A stretch of DNA of 44,792 nt from an uncultured bacterium. GTDB taxonomy: Bacteria > Bacillota > Clostridia > Oscillospirales > Oscillospiraceae. The translations under genes were made by a program, and so were the position numbers. The stretch is from NCBI GenBank assembly GCA_947383145.1, contig CANDCH010000017.1, forward strand, positions 1 to 44,792. The letters run 5' to 3'. The notes under the pieces were generated by a model. The model did no database searches, was not told where the DNA came from, and saw nothing but the letters and a program-made list of their open reading frames with translations. Position 1 is the first letter of the stretch. Every line of letters begins with the position of its first letter. Of the stretch, positions 3,888 to 36,658 are shown one piece after another.

Positions 3888-4217
3888 TTATTCCCGGTTC
3901 AGATAACGGTAGAGCCGCCAGTTGATGAAGACACCTGAGAAATAGGCGTAGGCCAGAACGATGCAGTTCCAGACTGTGTACCAGGGTTCCGGCATCCGGT
4001 CCATGATGAGATATTCCATCAAAAGGGTGGGAATGCCAAACACGCCGATGAACAGTCCGATCAGGCGTACCGTATAGCCACAATGCCGGTCAAATTCTTT
4101 TCCCGTGTACGTTGGTTTGCCGGCCAGGTACTGAACGGAGCGCTTCCCGTGCAGAAACGTCAGCCCCAAAAAGGACAGCCAGATAAACCAAGGCGCTTTG
4201 GGCCGGCCCTTCTTCAT
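3888..4217 (-). CDS. Small membrane protein, first gene after the glycine T-box
   Basis: A 109-aa protein with three hydrophobic stretches (about residues 8-24, 50-70 and 80-102) and a basic N-terminus. I recognise no family. The start was chosen at the Met preceded by GGGAGGTG with a 5-base gap; an in-frame ATG 15 bases upstream lacks a ribosome site. It lies directly downstream of the T-box terminator and upstream of glyS, so glycine-tRNA charging should control it too. A glycine or peptide transport role would fit, but nothing in the protein shows it. Confidence 0.75.
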
Positions 4218-4242: not shown

Positions 4243-4269
4243 CGCCCCGAGCCGGTATGGCTCAGGGCG
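4243..4269 (-). terminator. Terminator of the T-box leader
   Basis: Minus-strand hairpin CGCCCTGAGCC / GGCTCGGGGCG with a 5-base loop, followed by TTTTCGTTTTTT. It lies 14-26 bases before the Shine-Dalgarno of the membrane-protein gene. Confidence 0.85.
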
Positions 4270-4274
4270 AACAG

Positions 4275-4446
4275 TTGTCACGCTCCGCAAGGGTCTGGAC
4301 GCTCGGTCGCTTTCCCTTCGACTCGGGCCGGTCTGCGCCCGGGTCTCGCCTTCGGCTCGGTCGGCGGTAATCGCTTGCCGCCGGCAAGCACCGCCCCTCG
4401 CTCCGGTCCAAGCTCCCTCGCGGCCCCTTGCTCCGCGCTTCTTCTT
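4275..4446 (-). repeat. Structured intergenic repeat, copy C (inside the T-box leader)
   Basis: Minus-strand copy of the family also found at 5453-5726 and 8587-8880. In order it has GAAGCGCGGAGC, CCGGAGCGA, a middle stem GGCGGT / ACCGCC enclosing the hairpin GCTTGCC-GGC-GGCAAGC, then CCGAGCCGAAGG, and the 3' signature GCGGAGCGTGACAA. A second GAGTCGAAGGG motif is present, with an outer GGGCC/GGCCC pairing. Stem sequences differ from the other copies but keep pairing. Confidence 0.8.
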
Positions 4447-4639
4447 GTCCGCGGTTCCACCTGAATTCACGCCTGCGGCGTGCGCTCCTGCCCGGTAACG
4501 GCGGGGGCCGCCGGGCCATTTCCTGCCCGGACTCGGGAGGGCCTTCCCGCCGCGCCTTCGGGGGACTCGCACCGCCCGTCCCCTCTCTGAAAGCCCCGTG
4601 CGCGGGGTACTGTTCTCCGTCACTGCTTTGGTGGAAGCC

Positions 4640-4668
4640 ACTTTATCACCTTTTCCCCGGCCTGTCAA
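4640..4668 (-). promoter_or_regulatory. Promoter of the T-box-glyS transcript
   Basis: Minus-strand TTGACA (4663-4668) and TAAAGT (4640-4645) with a 17-base spacer, just upstream of the T-box. Confidence 0.85.
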
Positions 4669-4691
4669 GGGGTGGAACGGGAAAAGGGGGC

Positions 4692-4949
4692 TCAGCCCTC
4701 TTTTTTGGGGCGGATCAGGTGGATCAGGCCCAGGATCAGGAACACCGCGCCGATGACAATCAGCGCCGCCGCCCCCGCCATCAGGTACATCTGGGTGCGG
4801 CCCTCGCTCCGGGTGGTCACGCCCTCCACGAAGGTGAAATCCCCGCCCAGCACCCACATGACCGCCCCCAGCGCGGCCATGCCGGCGCCCTCCAGAAGCT
4901 CCTTGAGGGCGTTTTTTCGCGCCGTGGCGCGGTTTTGCTTGTCGTCCAT
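4692..4949 (-). CDS. Small two-helix membrane protein
   Basis: An 85-aa protein. A short charged N-terminus (residues 1-18) is followed by two hydrophobic helices (about 21-41 and 54-79) and a basic tail ending RPKKEG. AAAAGGAGG lies 9 bases before the ATG. It has its own promoter and sits divergently from zapA. I do not recognise a family, and nothing shows function beyond membrane location. Confidence 0.75.
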   Translation of the reverse strand: MDDKQNRATARKNALKELLEGAGMAALGAVMWVLGGDFTFVEGVTTRSEGRTQMYLMAGAAALIVIGAVFLILGLIHLIRPKKEG

Positions 4950-5000
4950 GCCAATACGCCTCCTTTTGGCCGCGTCCCCGGACGGGGCGCGTTTTCGAGA

Positions 5001-5029
5001 AGCATAGCATGGGCGGGCGGAAAAGTCAA
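5001..5029 (-). promoter_or_regulatory. Promoter of the 85-aa membrane protein gene
   Basis: Minus-strand TTGACT (5024-5029) and TATGCT (5001-5006) with a 17-base spacer. The TATGCT is preceded by TGC (extended -10). Confidence 0.8.
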
Positions 5030-5091
5030 GGCGGGCGCCGGTGAAAATTCAGCGGTCTTTTATACTTTTTTCATTTCCTTTTCCAAAGGGG

Positions 5092-5102
5092 TGTGCTATA
5101 AT
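5092..5102 (+). promoter_or_regulatory. Extended -10 promoter of zapA
   Basis: TATAAT at 5097-5102 is preceded by GTGTGC, giving a TGn extended -10. No good -35 box lies 17 bases upstream. The zapA start is 36 bases downstream. Confidence 0.6.
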
Positions 5103-5137
5103 ATACCGTATGAAAAACTGCTCAGGAGGGGACCGCC

Positions 5138-5452
5138 ATGCAAAACCGCATCACCGTCACCGTGGGTGGACTGAAATACACGCTGTTGGCCGCAGAGGAC
5201 GAGAGCTATGTCCACCGGGTGGCCGCCTATGTGAACGAGAAGCTGAAGGAGACGGCCAAGGCGGGGGGCGCGTCCCAGATGGACTGCGCCGTGCTCACCG
5301 CCATCAACATCGCCGACGACCGCTTCAAGGAGCAGGAGGCGTCGGTGGACCTGCGGCGGCAGATCAAGGACCTGCTGGAGGAGAACGCCAAGCTGAAGCT
5401 GGAGCTGAGCGAGGCCAAGCGGGAGATATTCAAATTGCAGCAGAAGCGGTAA
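5138..5452 (+). CDS. zapA: Cell division protein ZapA
   Basis: A 104-aa cytoplasmic protein of the ZapA family, which bundles FtsZ protofilaments at the division ring. The N-terminal part (ITVTVGGLKYTLLAAEDESYV) is the beta-rich head, and residues about 55-104 form a charged coiled coil rich in Leu, Glu and Lys. CAGGAGGGG precedes the ATG at a good distance. The stop codon is immediately followed by the first copy of the structured intergenic repeat; zapA, the U32 gene, maf, mreC and mutS all run in the same direction. Confidence 0.93.
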   Translation: MQNRITVTVGGLKYTLLAAEDESYVHRVAAYVNEKLKETAKAGGASQMDCAVLTAINIADDRFKEQEASVDLRRQIKDLLEENAKLKLELSEAKREIFKLQQKR

Positions 5453-5589
5453 GCGCGAGCTTAGGCGCGCCGCCCCGGATGGACCGGAGCGAGGATGAAA
5501 AACCAGGATTTGCGGAGCAAATCTGTTTTTTATCCGAGTCGAAGGGAAGCCGGGGCGGGCCGCGCGCCCAAAGCGAGCGTGATAAGGGA
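5453..5589 (+). repeat. Structured intergenic repeat, copy A1
   Basis: The first of two tandem units with a 137-base period, starting directly after the zapA stop. It pairs as an outer stem (GCCCCGG with CCGGGGC, extended by GGCGCGC with GCGCGCC), a middle stem (GGATGAAAAAC with GTTTTTTATCC) and an inner hairpin GATTTGC-GGA-GCAAATC. Unpaired CGGAGCGA and CCGAGTCGAAGGG flank the middle stem. The 3' end carries GCGAGCGTGATAA. Confidence 0.9.
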
Positions 5590-5726
5590 GCGCGAGCTTA
5601 GGCGCGCCGCCCCGGATGGACCGGAGCGAGGATGAAAAACCAGGATTTGCGGAGCAAATCTGTTTTTTATCCGAGTCGAAGGGAAGCCGAGGCGGGCCGC
5701 GCGCCCAACGCGAGCGTGATATCGTC
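5590..5726 (+). repeat. Structured intergenic repeat, copy A2
   Basis: Second tandem unit. It differs from A1 at only about two positions up to the GCGAGCGTGAT signature (CCGGGGC becomes CCGAGGC; CCAAAGC becomes CCAACGC). The near identity points to a recent duplication or ongoing homogenisation. Confidence 0.9.
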
Positions 5727-5787
5727 GGGGCAAGTTCCGCATCGCTCGTTTTCGCCTGCGGCGAAAGCTTGTTCGCTCCACTGCCCC
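5727..5787 (-). repeat. Related inverted element D
   Basis: On the minus strand an outer stem GGGGCA / TGCCCC encloses GTGGAGCGA, a CAAG / CTTG pairing and the hairpin TTTCGCC-GCA-GGCGAAA. It shares the GGAGCGA motif and nested layout of the family but lacks the GAGTCGAAG motif and has the opposite orientation. It may be a second subfamily. Confidence 0.55.
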
Positions 5788-5793
5788 TCCTCT

Positions 5794-5825
5794 CCCCGCA
5801 AAGCCTGACGGGCGGCTTTGCGGGG
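5794..5825. repeat. Perfect 12-bp hairpin before the U32 gene
   Basis: Arms CCCCGCAAAGCC (5794-5805) and GGCTTTGCGGGG (5814-5825) flank an 8-base loop. No T-run follows on the plus strand, so it may be an attenuator or RNA-stabilising hairpin rather than a classical terminator. It lies 58 bases before the U32 start. Together with the elements above it fills the 430-base gap after zapA. Confidence 0.6.
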
Positions 5826-5882
5826 GCCCGATAAGAGCCGCTCCCGCGGTACGATAAACAGCCAAGAAATGAGAGAACGACT

Positions 5883-7967
5883 ATGGAAATACTATCCCCC
5901 GCCGGCAGCCCGGAGGCGCTGCGCGCGGCGGTGTGCGCCGGGGCGGACGCGGTCTACCTGGGCTTCGGACAATTCAACGCCCGCCGGGGGGCGAAAAATT
6001 TTACCCGGGATGAGTTTGCCGCGGCGGCGGCCTACTGCCGCCTGCGGGGGGTGAAGGTATACCTCACCCTGAACACCCTGTGCGCCGACCGGGAGATGGA
6101 GGCGGCGGTAGACTGCGCCGTGCAGGCGTCCCAGCTGGGGGCGGACGCGGCGCTGGTCCAGGACATGGGGCTGGTGCGGGCCCTGCGGCAGGCCGCCCCC
6201 GACCTGCCCCTCCACGCCTCCACCCAGATGACCATCCACAGTCTGGACGGGGTGAAGCAGGCCGCCGACCTGGGCATGACCCGGGCGGTGCTGGCCCGGG
6301 AGCTGTCCCGCCGGGACATCGCCTATATCTGCGAAAAATCCCCCATCGAGATCGAGGTGTTCGTCCACGGCGCGCTTTGCATGTGCTACTCCGGGCAGTG
6401 CTTCATGTCCTCCGTCATCGGCGGGCGCAGCGGCAACCGGGGCATGTGCGCCCAGCCCTGCCGCCTGCCCTACGGCTGGGGAGAGGAGCTGGCGGGGGGC
6501 CATCCCCTCTCCCTGAAGGACATGTCCCTGGCGGGCCATCTGCGGGAGCTGCGGGACATGGGGGTGGCCAGCGCCAAGATCGAGGGCCGGATGAAGCGGC
6601 CCGAATACGTCTATATTGTGACCAAGGTGTACGCCGACGCCCTGCGGGAGGGCCGGGAGCCCACCCCCGAGGAGCTGTCCCGGCTGGAGCAGGCCTTCTC
6701 CCGCCAGGGCTTCACCGACGGCTATTTCATGGAGCGCAAGGGCCCGGATATGTTCGGCGTTCGGGAGGAGGCCAGAAACCCCAGGGAGCTGTTCGCCCAG
6801 GCCAAGGCCGCCTATGAGAAGGGGGAGGGCCCCGGCGTCCCCGTGAAGCTGTACGCCATGGTCCGGGCGGGGGAGCCCGTGCAGGTGGGGGTGGAGGACG
6901 GCCAGGGCCGGGTGGTCACCGCCGCAGGCCGCCCCCCGGAGGCCGCCCGGCGGCGGGCCGTCTCCCGGGCGGAGGTGGAGGCCCAGCTGGCCAAGACCGG
7001 CGGCACGCCCTACCGGGCGGTGGACGCCCGGGCCCTGGTGGAGGACGGGCTGGCGGTGCCCCTGTCGGCGCTGAACGCCCTGCGGCGGCAGGTGCTGGAC
7101 GGCCTGTCCGCCCAGCGCTCCGCCCTGCCCCGGCGCCGCCACGGCGCGTATAAGCTGGGCGCCCGGTATGAGAACTACCGGGGGGAGCCGGATATCTATC
7201 TCTCCCTGCGGCGGGCGTCCCAGATGACCTTCGAGCTGGTGAAGGCCAAGCCGGACCTCATCACCCTGCCGGTGGAGGAGGCCGCCGCCCACCCGGATGA
7301 GGTGAAGGGGGCCATTGAGCGGGGGGTGCCGGTGGCGGCGGTGCTGCCCCGGATCTGCTTCGACCGGGAGCTGCCCGCCCTGCGGGAGCAGCTGGAGGCC
7401 TGCCGGGAGGCGGGGATCAGCGATGTATACGTGGGAAATCTGGGCCTGATCCCTCTGTGCAGAGAGCTGGGCTTTGCCCTGCGGGGGGACTTCGGGCTCC
7501 AGGTGTTCAACAGCCAGGGGGTGAAGGAGTACAAGCGGATGGGGTTTCAGTCCCTCACCGCCTCCTTTGAGCTGAAGCTGGCCCAGATCCGGGACCTGTC
7601 CAAGGCGGTGGACCTGGAGATTATCGCCTACGGCCGCCTGCCCCTGATGATTACGGAGAACTGCGCCATTCAGAACCAGTCGGGCAGATGCGTGTGCTCC
7701 AACGTGAACCTGCTCACCGACCGCAAGGGAGTCCGCTTCCCGGTGGAACGCGCCTGGGGCTGCCGCAACGAGGTGCTCAACGCCAACAAGGTATTTCTGG
7801 CGGACAAGGCGGCGGACTGGAAGAAGGCGGGGCTGCGGGCGGTGCGGCTGCTGTTCACCACGGAGAACGGGGTGGAGTGCGCCCAGGTGCTGGAGGCCTA
7901 CCGGGGCAAGGGAAATTACGTCCCCAACAACTTCACCCGGGGGCTGTACTACCGGGATGTAGAATAA
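5883..7967 (+). CDS. U32 family peptidase-like protein (RlhA/YdcP type)
   Basis: A 694-aa cytoplasmic protein with an N-terminal U32 domain (residues about 1-300), a DUF3656-like middle part and a C-terminal Cys-containing segment. U32 signatures are visible: EILSPAGSPEALRAAV, GADAVYLG, HASTQMTIH and a Cys cluster at about 166, 168, 173, 189 and 193 (CMCYSGQC, CAQPC). More Cys residues lie near 590-605 (ENCAIQ, RCVCSN). The closest characterised relative in layout is E. coli RlhA, which is needed for 23S rRNA C2501 hydroxylation; Cys-rich U32 proteins are thought to hold iron-sulfur clusters. True protease activity is doubtful. It is followed by a short repeat element and maf. Confidence 0.9.
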   Translation: MEILSPAGSPEALRAAVCAGADAVYLGFGQFNARRGAKNFTRDEFAAAAAYCRLRGVKVYLTLNTLCADREMEAAVDCAVQASQLGADAALVQDMGLVRALRQAAPDLPLHASTQMTIHSLDGVKQAADLGMTRAVLARELSRRDIAYICEKSPIEIEVFVHGALCMCYSGQCFMSSVIGGRSGNRGMCAQPCRLPYGWGEELAGGHPLSLKDMSLAGHLRELRDMGVASAKIEGRMKRPEYVYIVTKVYADALREGREPTPEELSRLEQAFSRQGFTDGYFMERKGPDMFGVREEARNPRELFAQAKAAYEKGEGPGVPVKLYAMVRAGEPVQVGVEDGQGRVVTAAGRPPEAARRRAVSRAEVEAQLAKTGGTPYRAVDARALVEDGLAVPLSALNALRRQVLDGLSAQRSALPRRRHGAYKLGARYENYRGEPDIYLSLRRASQMTFELVKAKPDLITLPVEEAAAHPDEVKGAIERGVPVAAVLPRICFDRELPALREQLEACREAGISDVYVGNLGLIPLCRELGFALRGDFGLQVFNSQGVKEYKRMGFQSLTASFELKLAQIRDLSKAVDLEIIAYGRLPLMITENCAIQNQSGRCVCSNVNLLTDRKGVRFPVERAWGCRNEVLNANKVFLADKAADWKKAGLRAVRLLFTTENGVECAQVLEAYRGKGNYVPNNFTRGLYYRDVE

Positions 7968-7972
7968 TGAAA

Positions 7973-8005
7973 GAAGCGCGAGGACAGCCGCGCGCGGCAA
8001 TGAAG
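7973..8005 (+). repeat. Short derivative S1 of the structured repeat
   Basis: GAAGCGCGAGG joined directly to ACAGCCGCGCGCGGC and AATGAAG. This looks like the 5' end of the repeat fused to its 3' outer-stem part, with the central hairpin missing. It lies just after the U32 stop and carries up to the maf ribosome site (GCGGAGG). Confidence 0.5.
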
Positions 8006-8015
8006 CGGAGGTACT

Positions 8016-8606
8016 ATGGATATCATATTAGCATCCAATTCCCCCCGGCGGCGGGAGCTGCTGGGCAGGATGGGCCTGCGGGGCTTCCGGGTGGTGGCCC
8101 CCAACGTGGACGAGGGGGTGGAGGGCAACCTCCACCCCGCCCAGATTGTGGAGGAGCTGTCCCTGCGCAAGGCCCGGGCGGCGGCGGAGAAGGCGGACCC
8201 GGACGACCTCATCATCGCCGCCGACACGGTGGTGGCGCTGGAGGGGGCGGTGCTGGGCAAGCCCGCCGGCGAGCGGGACGCCTTTTCCATGCTGTCCGCT
8301 CTGTCCGGCAACCGGCACGACGTGTACACCGGAGTGACGGTGCTCCGGGGGGACCGGGTGGTGACGGAGCACGAGGCCACGGCGGTGACCTTCCGGGAGG
8401 TGGACCCGGAGGAGATTCTGGGCTATATCGCCACCGGCGAGCCCATGGACAAGGCCGGGGCCTACGGCATCCAGGGCCTGGGGGCGCTGCTGGTGTCGGG
8501 CATCCAGGGGGACTACTGCAATGTGATGGGCCTGCCGGTGTTCCGGCTGGGCCGCATTCTGTCCCGGTTCGGCGTGGATTTGCTGCGAAGCGCGGAGCCG
8601 TCGTGA
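8016..8606 (+). CDS. maf: Maf family nucleoside triphosphate pyrophosphatase
   Basis: A 196-aa cytoplasmic enzyme of the Maf/HAM1-like superfamily that hydrolyses dTTP/UTP or modified nucleotides to monophosphates and has been linked to septum formation. It shows the Maf signature ASNSPRRRELL (residues 6-16), AADTVVAL with the conserved Asp70, GKP (81-83), HDVYTGV (101-107) and DKAGAYGIQG near 150. GCGGAGG lies 5 bases before the ATG. The last residues, RSAEPS, and the stop codon are encoded by the first 20 bases of a repeat unit that is then repeated downstream. The C-terminus may therefore have been reshaped by the repeat. Confidence 0.94.
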   Translation: MDIILASNSPRRRELLGRMGLRGFRVVAPNVDEGVEGNLHPAQIVEELSLRKARAAAEKADPDDLIIAADTVVALEGAVLGKPAGERDAFSMLSALSGNRHDVYTGVTVLRGDRVVTEHEATAVTFREVDPEEILGYIATGEPMDKAGAYGIQGLGALLVSGIQGDYCNVMGLPVFRLGRILSRFGVDLLRSAEPS

Positions 8607-8721
8607 GCAGCGCGGATGGAGCGGAGCGAAAGCAAAAGCCAAGCGTCCGCGGAGCGGGAAGGGGTTTTGCTTGAGACGGAGCGAAGCCGCGCGTGGCGAA
8701 CAGGCGGAGCGTGACAACATC
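8587..8721 (+). repeat. Structured intergenic repeat, copy B1 (overlaps the maf 3' end)
   Basis: A unit of 135 bases. The outer stem is GCGCGG with CCGCGC, the middle stem AAGCAAAA with TTTTGCTT, and the inner hairpin CCGC-GGA-GCGG. Motifs GGAGCGA and GAGACGGAGCGAAG flank the middle stem, and the 3' end is GCGGAGCGTGACAA. Its first 20 bases are the end of maf, including the stop. Confidence 0.9.
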
Positions 8722-8856
8722 GAAGCGCGGAGCCGTCGTGAGCAGCGCGGATGGAGCGGAGCGAAAGCAAAAGCCAAGCGTCCGCGGAGCGGGAAGGGGT
8801 TTTGCTTGAGACGGAGCGAAGCCGCGCGTGGCGAACAGGCGGAGCGTGACAACATC
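8722..8856 (+). repeat. Structured intergenic repeat, copy B2
   Basis: A second 135-base unit, identical to B1 by eye at every position. A perfect tandem duplication of this length indicates a very recent event or active homogenisation. Confidence 0.92.
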
Positions 8857-8880
8857 AAAGCGCGGAGCCGTCGTGAGCGC
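8857..8880 (+). repeat. Partial third B unit
   Basis: AAAGCGCGGAGCCGTCGTGAG followed by CGC repeats the first 20-odd bases of the B unit with one change (G to A at the first base), then breaks off 37 bases before mreC. With B1 and B2 it fills the 311-base maf-mreC gap. Confidence 0.8.
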
Positions 8881-8917
8881 GGGGCGGCAGATCAGAAAAT
8901 AGGAGAACAGATCATCT

Positions 8918-9748
8918 ATGAGAGGCTTTTTCCGAAATAACGGCGGGCTGCTGCTGGTGGCGGCGGCCCTTTTGGCGGGGGTGCTGGCCCTGGGGTCTCA
9001 GATTCTGGGCTTTGATCCCCTCACCAGCGCCATGGAGGTGCTGGCCACCCCCTTCCGGGCGGCGTCCGCCGCCGTGACGGACTGGACCCAGGAGCGGTAT
9101 GAGCGCGCCTTTCGGTTTGACGAGCAGGCGGCCCAGATCGAGGCCCTCCAGCGCCGGGTGGCGGAGCTGGAGCGGGACGCCAACGCCGGACAGGACGCCC
9201 AGCGGGAGAACGAGCGCCTGCGGGACCTGCTGGGCCTGCGGGAGGAGCGGCCCGAGCTCCAGTACCGGGACGCGGCGGTGGTCCGGCGGTCGTCGTCCAA
9301 CTGGGCGTCCAACCTGACCATCGACCGGGGGACCTCCGGCGGCGTGGAGGCGGGGGACTGCGTCATCGACCAGTACGGCCACCTCATCGGCGTGGTCACC
9401 GAGGCGGACCCCAACTCCTCCCTGGTCACCACCATCCTGGACCCCACCCTGGAGCTGGGGGGCCGGGTGGCCCGCGCGGACGAGGACGCCATTCTGGAGG
9501 GAGACTTCACCCTGATGCTGGAGGGGCTGCTGCGGCTGTCCTTCCTGTCGGAGGAGGCTCAGCTGGTCACCGGCGACCAGGTGACCACCTCCGGCCTGGG
9601 GGGGCTGTACCCGGCGGGGCTGGCGGTGGGCACGGTGCGCACCCTCTACGTGGAGGAGGACGGCGTGAGCCGCTACGCCCAGGTGGAGCCCGCCGCGGAC
9701 ATCGCCGGGGCGCGGTACGTGTACGTGATTGTGGATTACGGAGAGTAG
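8918..9748 (+). CDS. mreC: Rod shape-determining protein MreC
   Basis: A 276-aa single-pass membrane protein that organises the elongasome (MreB, RodA, PBP2) on the outer face of the membrane. The N-terminal helix is at about residues 9-27. A coiled coil follows (about 68-108, rich in Glu, Arg and Leu), then the double beta-barrel MreC domain with SSNWASNLTIDRGTSGGVEAG and the GLGGLYPAGLAVGTV stretch typical of the family. TAGGAGA lies upstream. No mreB or mreD is adjacent: maf lies before and mutS after, so the usual mreBCD order is broken here. The G of the stop codon starts the S2 repeat element. Confidence 0.93.
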   Translation: MRGFFRNNGGLLLVAAALLAGVLALGSQILGFDPLTSAMEVLATPFRAASAAVTDWTQERYERAFRFDEQAAQIEALQRRVAELERDANAGQDAQRENERLRDLLGLREERPELQYRDAAVVRRSSSNWASNLTIDRGTSGGVEAGDCVIDQYGHLIGVVTEADPNSSLVTTILDPTLELGGRVARADEDAILEGDFTLMLEGLLRLSFLSEEAQLVTGDQVTTSGLGGLYPAGLAVGTVRTLYVEEDGVSRYAQVEPAADIAGARYVYVIVDYGE

Positions 9749-9799
9749 AAGCGCGAGGATAGCCGCGGGGCCAATCCGAGCGTGACCGTGACAATGAAG
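9748..9799 (+). repeat. Short derivative S2 of the structured repeat
   Basis: GAAGCGCGAGGATAGCCGCGG is followed by CGAGCGTGACCGTGACAATGAAG. It has the 5' and 3' signatures of the family without the central hairpin, as in S1 but with the GAGCGTGAC end retained. It begins at the last base of the mreC stop codon. Confidence 0.55.
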
Positions 9800-9902
9800 A
9801 AGCCCGGGGACAAATACGGGCGCATTGGCGTGATGGATTTTGAATAGATGATGCGCATCCTCCCGGCGTGCGTGTTGTTCATTAGAAAGAGAAGGTGAAC
9901 CC

Positions 9903-34727: not shown

Positions 34728-34855
34728 CGTGGTGTGTTGACGCTCTGATTGGGCGCGTGGCCGGGCCGCTTTTCCTCCGTCTCAGGCAAAACACGCGCCG
34801 TCAGACGGCGCTGGGCTTTTACCCCCGCTGCGGTCCAAACTTCCCCATGCGCCTG

Positions 34856-36658
34856 TCATCGCGCTATGGCTTCCATCTCGTCCAAAAGGGAGGAGAACAG
34901 GTCCAGGGCGTCCTGAATGGGCCGGGGGCTGGTCATGTCCACCCCGGCGTCCCGCAGCAGGTCGATGGGGTCCCGGGAGCTGCCGCCGGACAGGAAGCCC
35001 AGCATATCCTTCACGGCGGGCGCTCCCTCCCGCAGGATGCGGCGGGACAGGGCGATGGCGGCGGAGTAGCCGGTGGCGTACTGGTACACGTAGTAATTGT
35101 AGTAAAAGTGGGGGATACGGGCCCATTCCAGGGCGATGCGGCCGTCCGTCTCCATGTCCGGGCCGAAATATTTGGCGTTGAGGGCCTTATATTCGGCGCA
35201 CAAGAGCTCCGCGGTGAGGGGCGTGCCCTGGGCGTTCAGCTCGCCCATGCGCAGCTCGAACTCGGCGAACATGGTCTGACGGTACAGCGTGCCCCTAAAC
35301 TGCTCCAAGAAGTGGTTGAGGAGCCATGCCCGCTCCGTTTTGTCCGCGGTTTTGGCCAGCAGGTGCTCCATGAGCAGGGCCTCGTTACAGGTGGAGGCCA
35401 CCTCCGCCACAAAGATCACATAGTCCCGGTAGACGGGGGGCTGGGCCCTGTTGCTGAAATAGGTGTGCATGGCGTGGCCCAGCTCGTGGGCCAGGGTGAA
35501 CATGCCGTCCAGGTCGTCCTTGTAGTTGAGCAGGATGAAGGGGTGGGCCAGCGCGCCGCACATATAGCCCCCGGACCGCTTGCCCACGTTTTCGTACACG
35601 TCGATCCAGCGGTTTTCAAAGGCCTCCCGGATTACGGCCCGGTATTCCTCCCCCATGGGGGCCAGGGCGTCGTACACCGTAGCCTTGGCCTCCTCGAAGG
35701 GGATGGTTTTGGACGCGCCGGACACCATGGGGGCGTAGATATCGTACATATGCAGCTCGTCCACCCCCAGCAGCTTTTTCCGCAGGCGGACGTAGCGGTG
35801 GAGCTTGTCCAGGTTGGCGTTCACCGTGTCCACCAGGTTGCGGTACACCGCCGGAGGCACCCGGTTGGAGGCCGTGGCGGCGTCCAGGGGGGAGGCGTAC
35901 CTCCGGGCGGAGGAGAAGAAACGGCGCTTCTTCGCCTCCGCATCCAGAAGGGCGGCGGCGGTGTTTTGGAACTGCCCCAGAGTGTCGTAATAGGTCTCAT
36001 AGGCGGAGCGGCGCAGGGCCCGGTCCTCGCTCATCTCGTAGGGGACGAAGGAGGCGTTGGACAGGGGCAGGCGGTTCCCCTGGCCGTCCTCCGCGTCGGG
36101 GAAGGTGAGATCGGCGTTGGAGAACTTGGAGAAGATGTCGTCGGGGGCCTGGGCCATCTCCCCGGCGGCGGCCAGCAGCTTTTCTTCCCCGTCGGACAGG
36201 GTGTGCTCTTTTTTGTCCTGAAGAACGGCAAAGAACCGGCGGTACAGCTCCAGCCCCGGCTCGCCGGCGTAGAATTCCTCCAGCGTCTCCGGGGTGATTT
36301 TCAGCAGCTCCGGCGTGTCGAAGGCGGTGGCGGAGTTCAGCTCCACCCACAGGCTCACGGCCCTGCCCGCCAGGGTCTGGTATTGGGCCGCCCGGGTGTC
36401 CTCGTCCTGGCGCAGGCTGGCGTATTGGTGGAGCCGGGCCGTCCGCTCCACCGCCTGGTCGCACAGGGTGAGGTAGCCGTAGAGGGTCTGGGCGCTCTCG
36501 GCCAGGCGGCCCTGATAGGCGGAAAGGGATTGGACCAGCTCCTGGGTCTGCCGGAACTCGGCCTCCCAGGCCTGGTCGGAGGAAAAGATATCGGCGGTGT
36601 TCCAGGTATATTCCACCGGGATCTCGCCGCGCTGGGGGATTTTTTTTAGGTCCGCCAT
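34856..36658 (-). CDS. pepF: Oligoendopeptidase F
   Basis: A 600-aa cytoplasmic M3-family zinc metallopeptidase that cuts short peptides. The zinc motif HELGHAMHTYF (HExxH) is at about residues 391-401, with the downstream Glu in the EVASTCNEALL stretch. Length and the N-terminal PVEYTWNTADIF match PepF. GGAGG lies about 9 bases before the ATG. It is transcribed alone from its own promoter and ends before the shared terminator. Confidence 0.96.
   Translation of the reverse strand: MADLKKIPQRGEIPVEYTWNTADIFSSDQAWEAEFRQTQELVQSLSAYQGRLAESAQTLYGYLTLCDQAVERTARLHQYASLRQDEDTRAAQYQTLAGRAVSLWVELNSATAFDTPELLKITPETLEEFYAGEPGLELYRRFFAVLQDKKEHTLSDGEEKLLAAAGEMAQAPDDIFSKFSNADLTFPDAEDGQGNRLPLSNASFVPYEMSEDRALRRSAYETYYDTLGQFQNTAAALLDAEAKKRRFFSSARRYASPLDAATASNRVPPAVYRNLVDTVNANLDKLHRYVRLRKKLLGVDELHMYDIYAPMVSGASKTIPFEEAKATVYDALAPMGEEYRAVIREAFENRWIDVYENVGKRSGGYMCGALAHPFILLNYKDDLDGMFTLAHELGHAMHTYFSNRAQPPVYRDYVIFVAEVASTCNEALLMEHLLAKTADKTERAWLLNHFLEQFRGTLYRQTMFAEFELRMGELNAQGTPLTAELLCAEYKALNAKYFGPDMETDGRIALEWARIPHFYYNYYVYQYATGYSAAIALSRRILREGAPAVKDMLGFLSGGSSRDPIDLLRDAGVDMTSPRPIQDALDLFSSLLDEMEAIAR

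Follow-up and report, generated by a model that had tools for sequence, protein, structure and literature searches.

What kind of element forms the structured repeats that recur between the genes of one contig of an uncultured Oscillospiraceae bacterium? The window, meaning the whole stretch analysed, is contig CANDCH010000017.1 of assembly GCA_947383145.1 (44,792 nt; G000:C17), which belongs to a genome of 2.48 Mb in 58 contigs that is 85% complete. A first-pass annotation of the window had described three sequence types, A, B and C, that share one nested layout of stems and conserved unpaired motifs. Here we report that A, B and C are copies of one dispersed family found on many contigs. Its members are probably non-autonomous mobile hairpin repeats of modular build, akin to the repetitive extragenic palindromic (REP) and BOX repeats.

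Full-length copies measure about 125–140 nt and are laid out as a rod, in which short stems are split by G/A-rich internal loops. A copy starts near (GAA)GCGC and finishes near GCGTGACA, and its interior runs from an outer arm through the motif GGANCGNAGCGA, an inner stem-loop and GAGNCGNAGNGAA to the returning arm. The outer arm comes in at least four types (type 1, GCCGTCGTGAGCAGCGCGGATGG; type 2, GCTTAGGCGCGCCGCCCCGGATGG; type 3, GAAGCGGACAGCGAGGGAGCTTGG; type 4, GATAGCCGCGCAGGGGAGCTTGG) plus a rarer fifth, and the type was unassigned in 19 of 203 arrays. The inner modules, too, come in more than one type. The G/A internal-loop motifs show little or no variation in the alignment while the adjoining stem bases change.

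All three copies lie where they had first been placed, their stems and GGA/GGC loops match the earlier description, and A and B are each a tandem pair. Copy A1 (5450..5583, plus strand, arm type 2) sits directly on the zapA stop codon (TAA, 5450-5452; ZapA assigned by PF05164) and scores 119.8 bits with R1, a covariance model built from 28 copies; its tandem duplicate A2 (5587..5720, plus) is 98% identical. Copy B1 (8587..8715, plus, arm type 1, 125.1 bits) contributes the last codons and the TGA stop (ending at 8606) of maf (PF02545), and is followed by an identical tandem duplicate, B2 (8722..8850, plus), and by a third copy truncated to its first 21 nt (8858..8878, plus). Copy C (4277..4441, minus, 63.1 bits) also matches R1 and is a composite in which a shell resembling arm type 3 carries an inserted second hairpin module (GGCGGTGCTTGCC...GACCGAGCCGAAGGCGAGA). 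The extra module ending in GACCGAGCCGAAGGCGAGA is present in several other copies as well, and stands alone in this genome near C1:390485 and C4:11772. One more full-length copy, absent from the first-pass list, was found at 34737..34867 (minus, arm type 4 by eye, 91.6 bits), sharing bases with the 3' end of a peptidase M3 gene; a terminator-like hairpin follows it.

The apparent clustering in one 5.5-kb stretch turned out to be incidental, as the family occurs genome-wide. BLASTN searches of the genome with A, B and C returned 15, 54 and 34 matches, and R1 returned 87 at E ≤ 0.1, of which 69 reached E ≤ 1e-6. Of 24 further genomes of the genus, 19 contain copies detected by R1, their number ranging from 1 to at least 84; five congeners had no match and seven more had only 1–4. 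In a family-wide sample of 150 genomes, this one included, 16 matched at E ≤ 1e-6, representing 12 of 106 genera, and zero matches were obtained in 15 genomes from other families of the same order. Copy numbers from these genome searches are lower bounds. The exact arm-type-1 pattern occurs in at least 107 stretches of GTDB genomes, 100 of which were used as the GTDB loci below. Among the 80 titles listed, these are assigned to Oscillospiraceae, Flavonifractor, Pseudoflavonifractor, Lawsonibacter, Galloscillospira and Enterenecus, with isolates of Flavonifractor and Pseudoflavonifractor among the carriers, and the remaining titles (Clostridiales, Bacillota, uncultured bacterium) are uninformative. 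Several contigs of the assembly terminate in or near copies. The model search of this genome and its relatives, set beforehand as a check, found copies throughout the genome and in other genera, so that the family is not confined to tandem duplications at this locus.

Selection on an RNA or hairpin-DNA structure had been suggested from the compensating stem changes, and the larger set of copies bears this out. In the alignment of 28 copies, RNAalifold predicted 29 pairs, 25 of them with at least one two-sided change. We compared 73 ungapped inner regions, each 43 nt long and 70 of them distinct, with 1000 shuffles, applying no stem filter; 14 of 16 fixed-register pairs lay above every shuffle; of the other two, one ties the shuffled maximum and one is invariant. 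One pair, for example, is formed in 72 of 73 regions against a shuffled maximum of 52, and two pairs that use all four pair types are formed in 69 (maximum 51) and 71 (maximum 55). The shuffles ignore the kinship of copies, for which parsimony counts partly correct: on a FastTree tree of 72 cores, eight outer pairs showed 6, 3, 12, 5, 1, 1, 2 and 0 two-sided changes. For these cores a stem filter was applied and the partner column was chosen as the best among 20, whereas the comparison of the 73 regions used fixed partners and no filter. Fold stability relative to shuffles is pronounced for A (z -5.8) and lower for C (z -2.3), and it is weak for B (z -1.2) and for the copy at 34737 (z -0.9), whose single-sequence fold deviates inside from the family layout. 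Fold stability alone thus fails to support every copy; the two-sided changes exceed chance, and the family is a structured RNA or single-stranded DNA element under selection.

The second feature of the family is its position relative to genes, which were called with our own hexamer caller, while copies were located by nhmmer. The site sets from this genome, from the sister species G047 and from the GTDB loci overlap, because the GTDB loci include G047 contigs. Between co-directional genes, 138 sites are in sense and 17 in antisense orientation (155 in total), so that the claim that all copies read with the adjacent genes fails for a minority. After removal of 4 of the 138 sense sites with more than 30 nt of gene overlap, 98 of 134 sites (73%) have the start of the element inside the upstream stop codon or no more than 5 nt from it. 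Uniform placement in the gap predicts 12.9 such sites, with a maximum of 29 in 20,000 simulations. The element ended within 5 nt of the next start at 1 of the 134 sites, and gene overlap exceeded 40 nt at 7 of the 186 sites flanked by genes on both sides. Among the copies listed, the stop codon is in some cases part of the element itself; type 1 provides it in one frame, types 2 and 4 in another. Several copies that have no adjacent upstream stop come, by eye, after terminator-like hairpins or T-box-like sequences. The upstream genes encode MreB, DnaK, GrpE, Hfq, IF-3, L9, glutamate dehydrogenase, acetate kinase, flagellin and others (35 of 36 upstream genes of this genome were submitted to Pfam, and 33 matched). 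Because these host genes are unrelated, the element is unlike a gene-specific regulator.

Some host genes recur among the loci. The stop codon of the elongation factor EF-P gene carries elements in L121, L119, L167, L077 and L308 (Pfam-assigned in L121 only), and that of the initiation factor IF-1 gene in L107, L129 and L172 (Pfam-assigned in L129 only); a preference for highly expressed genes is possible. In L101, L129 and L153, all from other genomes, the elements are preceded by the near-identical 20-nt sequence GATACCTTTCCGTCTGYACCGA or one close to it, which constitutes a common 3' end. Three copies appear to lie inside called genes (L131:1289-1410, L137:800-921 and L122:5891-6014), and could be intragenic insertions or reflect wrong gene calls.

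Presence or absence at orthologous sites was a question asked beforehand, and presence, copy number, length and arm type all differ between species. Over the U32-maf region G047 shares about 91% identity with this genome, and 17 of 55 sites of our genome could be compared with it, 12 of which differ by more than 20 nt in span. At nine of the 17, nhmmer found no copy in G047 at E ≤ 1e-3; one of these nine (L256) has a covariance-model match and several retain a short 5' remnant. A and B, double in this genome, are single in G047. Read by eye, the maf-mreC boundary has a double element in this genome, a single one in G047, a different variant in G002, remnants in both G014 and G049, and no element in 20 of the 23 relatives other than G047. 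The two short derivatives of the first-pass list fared differently. An internally deleted copy at the mreC stop codon (9748..9786, plus; MreC assigned by PF04085) keeps the outermost stem of arm type 4 only and was recovered weakly by the model (R1 E 0.0009); it looks like a deletion product, because G047 has a full-length element there. A probable shrunken copy 3' of the U32 peptidase gene (7973..8005, plus) gave no R1 match at E ≤ 0.1 and rests on inspection by eye and on a similar shrunken derivative at this boundary in G047; G022 carries a full element there.

Further, elements behind the same gene carry different arm types in 8 of 19 multi-genome clusters (three of 22 had been dropped, in which G047 was compared with itself), and their offsets lie within 1 nt of each other in seven of these eight. 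Local duplication is frequent, since adjacent copies share at least 97% identity in 13 of 21 tandem arrays; the other arrays are 65–95% identical, and three are composite copies split into two matches. Half-length matches at E ≤ 1 comprise 32 of the 5' half and 8 of the 3' half, some of them at contig ends. By eye, tandem copies open with a few bases of gene-specific left flank, and we infer that this fits duplication by polymerase jumping at the hairpin base. The first-pass annotation had offered either a mobile hairpin or an RNA-processing or operon-spacing element. Presence and absence between species, patchy copy number and swapped arms favour the mobile half of that suggestion, and the RNA-processing half keeps some probability, as the elements are placed and oriented with respect to gene 3' ends.

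Which strand folds, and as which molecule, can be approached through the mismatches. In 139 cores taken without a filter, the first four inner pairs show 20 G.T and 1 A.C mismatches (p 2e-5), and the sense strand therefore seems to be the folded one; a double-stranded DNA cruciform as the selected form is disfavoured by the same count. The 26 tRNAs of the same contigs gave 39 G.T and 0 A.C, and the A.C share of the element is not above theirs (p 0.35). Outer stems are nearly mismatch-free (G.T 1 and A.C 3 of 762 pairs). All these counts ignore the kinship of copies. The inner hairpin loop is 3 nt long in 119 of 137 cases, and 96 of these triloops read (G/A)NA; a C-G pair closes the loop in 123 of 137. 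At fixed positions, (G/A)NA occurs in 59 of 73, where composition predicts 17%, and C-G closing in 67 of 73. Three-nucleotide loops are found in 42 of 184 terminator hairpins of the same contigs, compared with the 119 of 137 here (Fisher p 6e-32). Triloops of the d(GNA) kind with C-G closing have been described as a stable DNA loop family that behaves like RNA GNRA tetraloops (PMC5815330). By this analogy the triloop signature may be read as a lead toward single-stranded DNA, short of proof. As between RNA and single-stranded DNA, the loops favour DNA and wobble tolerance fits either. Fold energies are uninformative on this point, since the DNA parameter set awards no bonus to the triloops examined. 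In G183, a genome in one contig, the 12 matches are too few to show a replication-strand bias, and strand is confounded there with gene direction.

A mobile hairpin family of this kind would have the following life cycle. The sense strand, folded as a single strand, would be the form acted on during spread, and a dedicated machinery would place it immediately after stop codons and after certain other 3' ends. After insertion, the hairpin base would promote tandem duplication, deletion and the exchange of arms between copies. In mRNA, the element would form a rigid rod right after the stop codon, with a probable effect on the upstream message of the kind that REP and BOX elements may have. A more specific version, which we put forward only tentatively, is that of a new class of selfish hairpins aimed at translation stop codons (and other 3' ends) in sense orientation. 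Their mover would be none of the known REP transposases and would recognise a folded single strand bearing GNA triloops of DNA type and loops of mismatched purines, and the conserved ends would allow different inner cassettes to be swapped at one and the same stop codon.

The alternative that survives best holds that the element is a host-beneficial cis-acting RNA of gene 3' ends, kept by selection for termination, mRNA protection or processing. The stop-codon placement, with its near absence from next starts, and the 138:17 sense bias both speak for it, as does the 20:1 excess of G.T over A.C at the first four inner pairs, which resembles that of tRNAs. It also draws on Escherichia coli, where ribosome stalling has been reported for REPs that lie 15 nt or less from a stop codon (PMC12306157). 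Against it stand the five congeners without a match and the seven more with 1–4, host genes without an evident common function, orthologous copies that appear, vanish and switch type, and inner loops that are mostly triloops of the DNA-stable type instead of RNA tetraloops. We regard this alternative as rather unlikely, though it deserves to be taken seriously.

How does the family relate to known systems? At the gathering threshold, Rfam recognised only three tRNAs in the window, and a low-threshold search of 4250-9820 gave a T-box at the start of C and five others, all below their cut-offs. No literature description of the family was found in a search that fell short of preprints and most subscription journals. 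The earlier statement that no named class is known thus stands, in that neither an Rfam family nor a located paper matches. Integron attC sites conserve structure over sequence, are recognised as a folded single strand and sit behind genes; the family is like them in the first and last respects and would be so in the second, and differs in sitting behind chromosomal housekeeping genes.

REP elements and the bacterial interspersed mosaic elements (BIMEs) that they build are described as numerous intergenic palindromes near genes that form mosaic arrays and whose termini may supply stop codons, and REP-associated tyrosine transposases (RAYTs) recognise single-stranded REP DNA (PMC3733652). High copy number, mostly intergenic location, stop-codon proximity and mosaic arrays are shared with that account. 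The unit here is about 130 nt, in contrast to the 20–40 bp REP palindrome, and it is a nested multi-loop rod; by eye, its ends are GAAGCGC and GCGTGACA and lack a GTAG/CGTC tag, CGTC occurring only inside arm type 1 and never at an end. Placement differs too: by one count, 446 of 4,072 E. coli REPs (about 11%) lie within 15 nt of a stop codon, and an earlier study is quoted with 260 of 496 (PMC12306157), whereas the family's share at stops is the 73% given above. The BOX elements of Streptococcus are described as modular, with variable inner modules and a predicted RNA fold; they are deemed parasitic, and one is joined to T-box riboswitches (PMC3049150). Modularity, parasitic distribution and a junction with a T-box or T-box-like sequence are held in common, in a different host family; the separation from boxA, boxB and boxC is one of description only, and the accessible description of BOX has neither the stop-codon locking nor the arm-type swapping seen here. 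For mitochondrial double-hairpin elements, mobility was inferred from presence and absence between relatives (PMC7218506, citing Paquin et al. 2000); these are organellar and, in the accessible description, have no tie to stop codons.

A REP/RAYT system proper, with repeats moved by an IS200/IS605-like Y1 transposase, is suggested by the palindromes dispersed between genes, their nearness to stop codons and their mosaic arrays, all of which resemble REPs, and Y1 transposases do occur in 16 of 42 genomes of the genus. The search for Y1_Tnp, however, found none in this genome (85% complete) and none in 8 of the 9 members of the genus that have 19 or more copies, this one included and some of the assemblies incomplete, the exception being G020 with one match of 30.5 bits. 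With the unit length and untagged ends added, we consider this system very improbable. Equally hard to credit is a purely mutational origin of the compensatory changes, in which template switching during replication corrects imperfect palindromes and no selection acts: palindromes are known substrates of such correction, and duplication and length change are frequent at the elements, but the process should erase the mismatched G/A loops, whose motifs are invariant or nearly so, and, being strand-neutral, would yield neither the loop type nor the G.T:A.C asymmetry.

Several observations count against mobile hairpin repeats folded on the sense strand. Five of the 17 sites compared with G047 are nearly equal in span, and the empty sites are too diverged for a clean insertion junction. 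Recurrence behind the same genes in several genera could mean old, functionally retained elements. On the side of the mover, the Y1_Tnp search turned up no transposase for the family; no autonomous parent (a gene between 5' and 3' half-elements) was detected in this genome, G047 or the GTDB loci searched; and, by eye and among the sites listed, single copies have no clear target-site duplication. Short flank repeats belong to tandem duplication (by eye). A miniature inverted-repeat transposable element (MITE) moved by a DDE transposase, such as RUP, would have terminal inverted repeats and a target-site duplication; the element ends here pair imperfectly (GCGC/GCGT). No vehicle is seen, because B was unmatched in phage and plasmid collections and the arm-type-1 pattern had only two matches in viral contigs. 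The strand argument has its own exceptions. At the pair within the G/A loop, A.C exceeds G.T by 13 to 8 (149 cores), and a hand tally of the mixed 28-copy alignment is near symmetric. An unsplit count over eight inner positions gave G.T 43 and A.C 63, with the A.C excess mostly at positions 5 and 7 of the second inner type, whose stem is about 4 bp. A split count (G.T 42, A.C 6), in which the A.C share is above that of tRNAs (p 0.03), was set aside; it is biased at positions 4-7 because its filter accepts G.T.

Two further features of the window adjoin the elements. C begins, at its 5' end, within the 3' end of a T-box-like leader match (RF00230, 4431-4632, minus, 53.2 bits, below the gathering score of 93), and 4277-4632 on the minus strand reads in the order T-box-like leader, element C, terminator-like hairpin. 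Downstream lie a small open reading frame (3888-4217), which belongs to a stretch absent from G047, and a class II aminoacyl-tRNA synthetase gene; element C may change the T-box control. Behind A, at 5723-5836, is a second dispersed hairpin repeat of about 110 nt (GTCGGGGCAAGCTNCGTATCNCTCG...CACTCATTCCGCTGCCCCTCCTCTCCCCRCAAAGCC..GGCTTTGCGGGGGCCCC), also present in L042, L070, L289, L158 and others. It has seven copies in this genome, eight in G047 and eight in GTDB loci, at least one being counted twice, and 8 of the 23 copies are no more than 40 nt away from the 3' end of a stop-codon element. By eye its outer stem varies in pairs (GGGGC/GCCCC, GCCGC/GCGGC, GAGGC/GCCTC).

Small interspersed hairpin repeats are widespread, and the placement rule of this family is unusually sharp, at the stop codon and on the sense strand. 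For annotation, the copies matter because they create C-terminal codons and stop codons, as in maf here. The ribosome stalling reported for REPs (PMC12306157) offers a concrete functional model for elements at stop codons. As the structural grammar of the family is readable from natural variation, its insertion mechanism is testable in cultured relatives, and so is the influence that a rigid hairpin has on termination and on the decay of mRNA.

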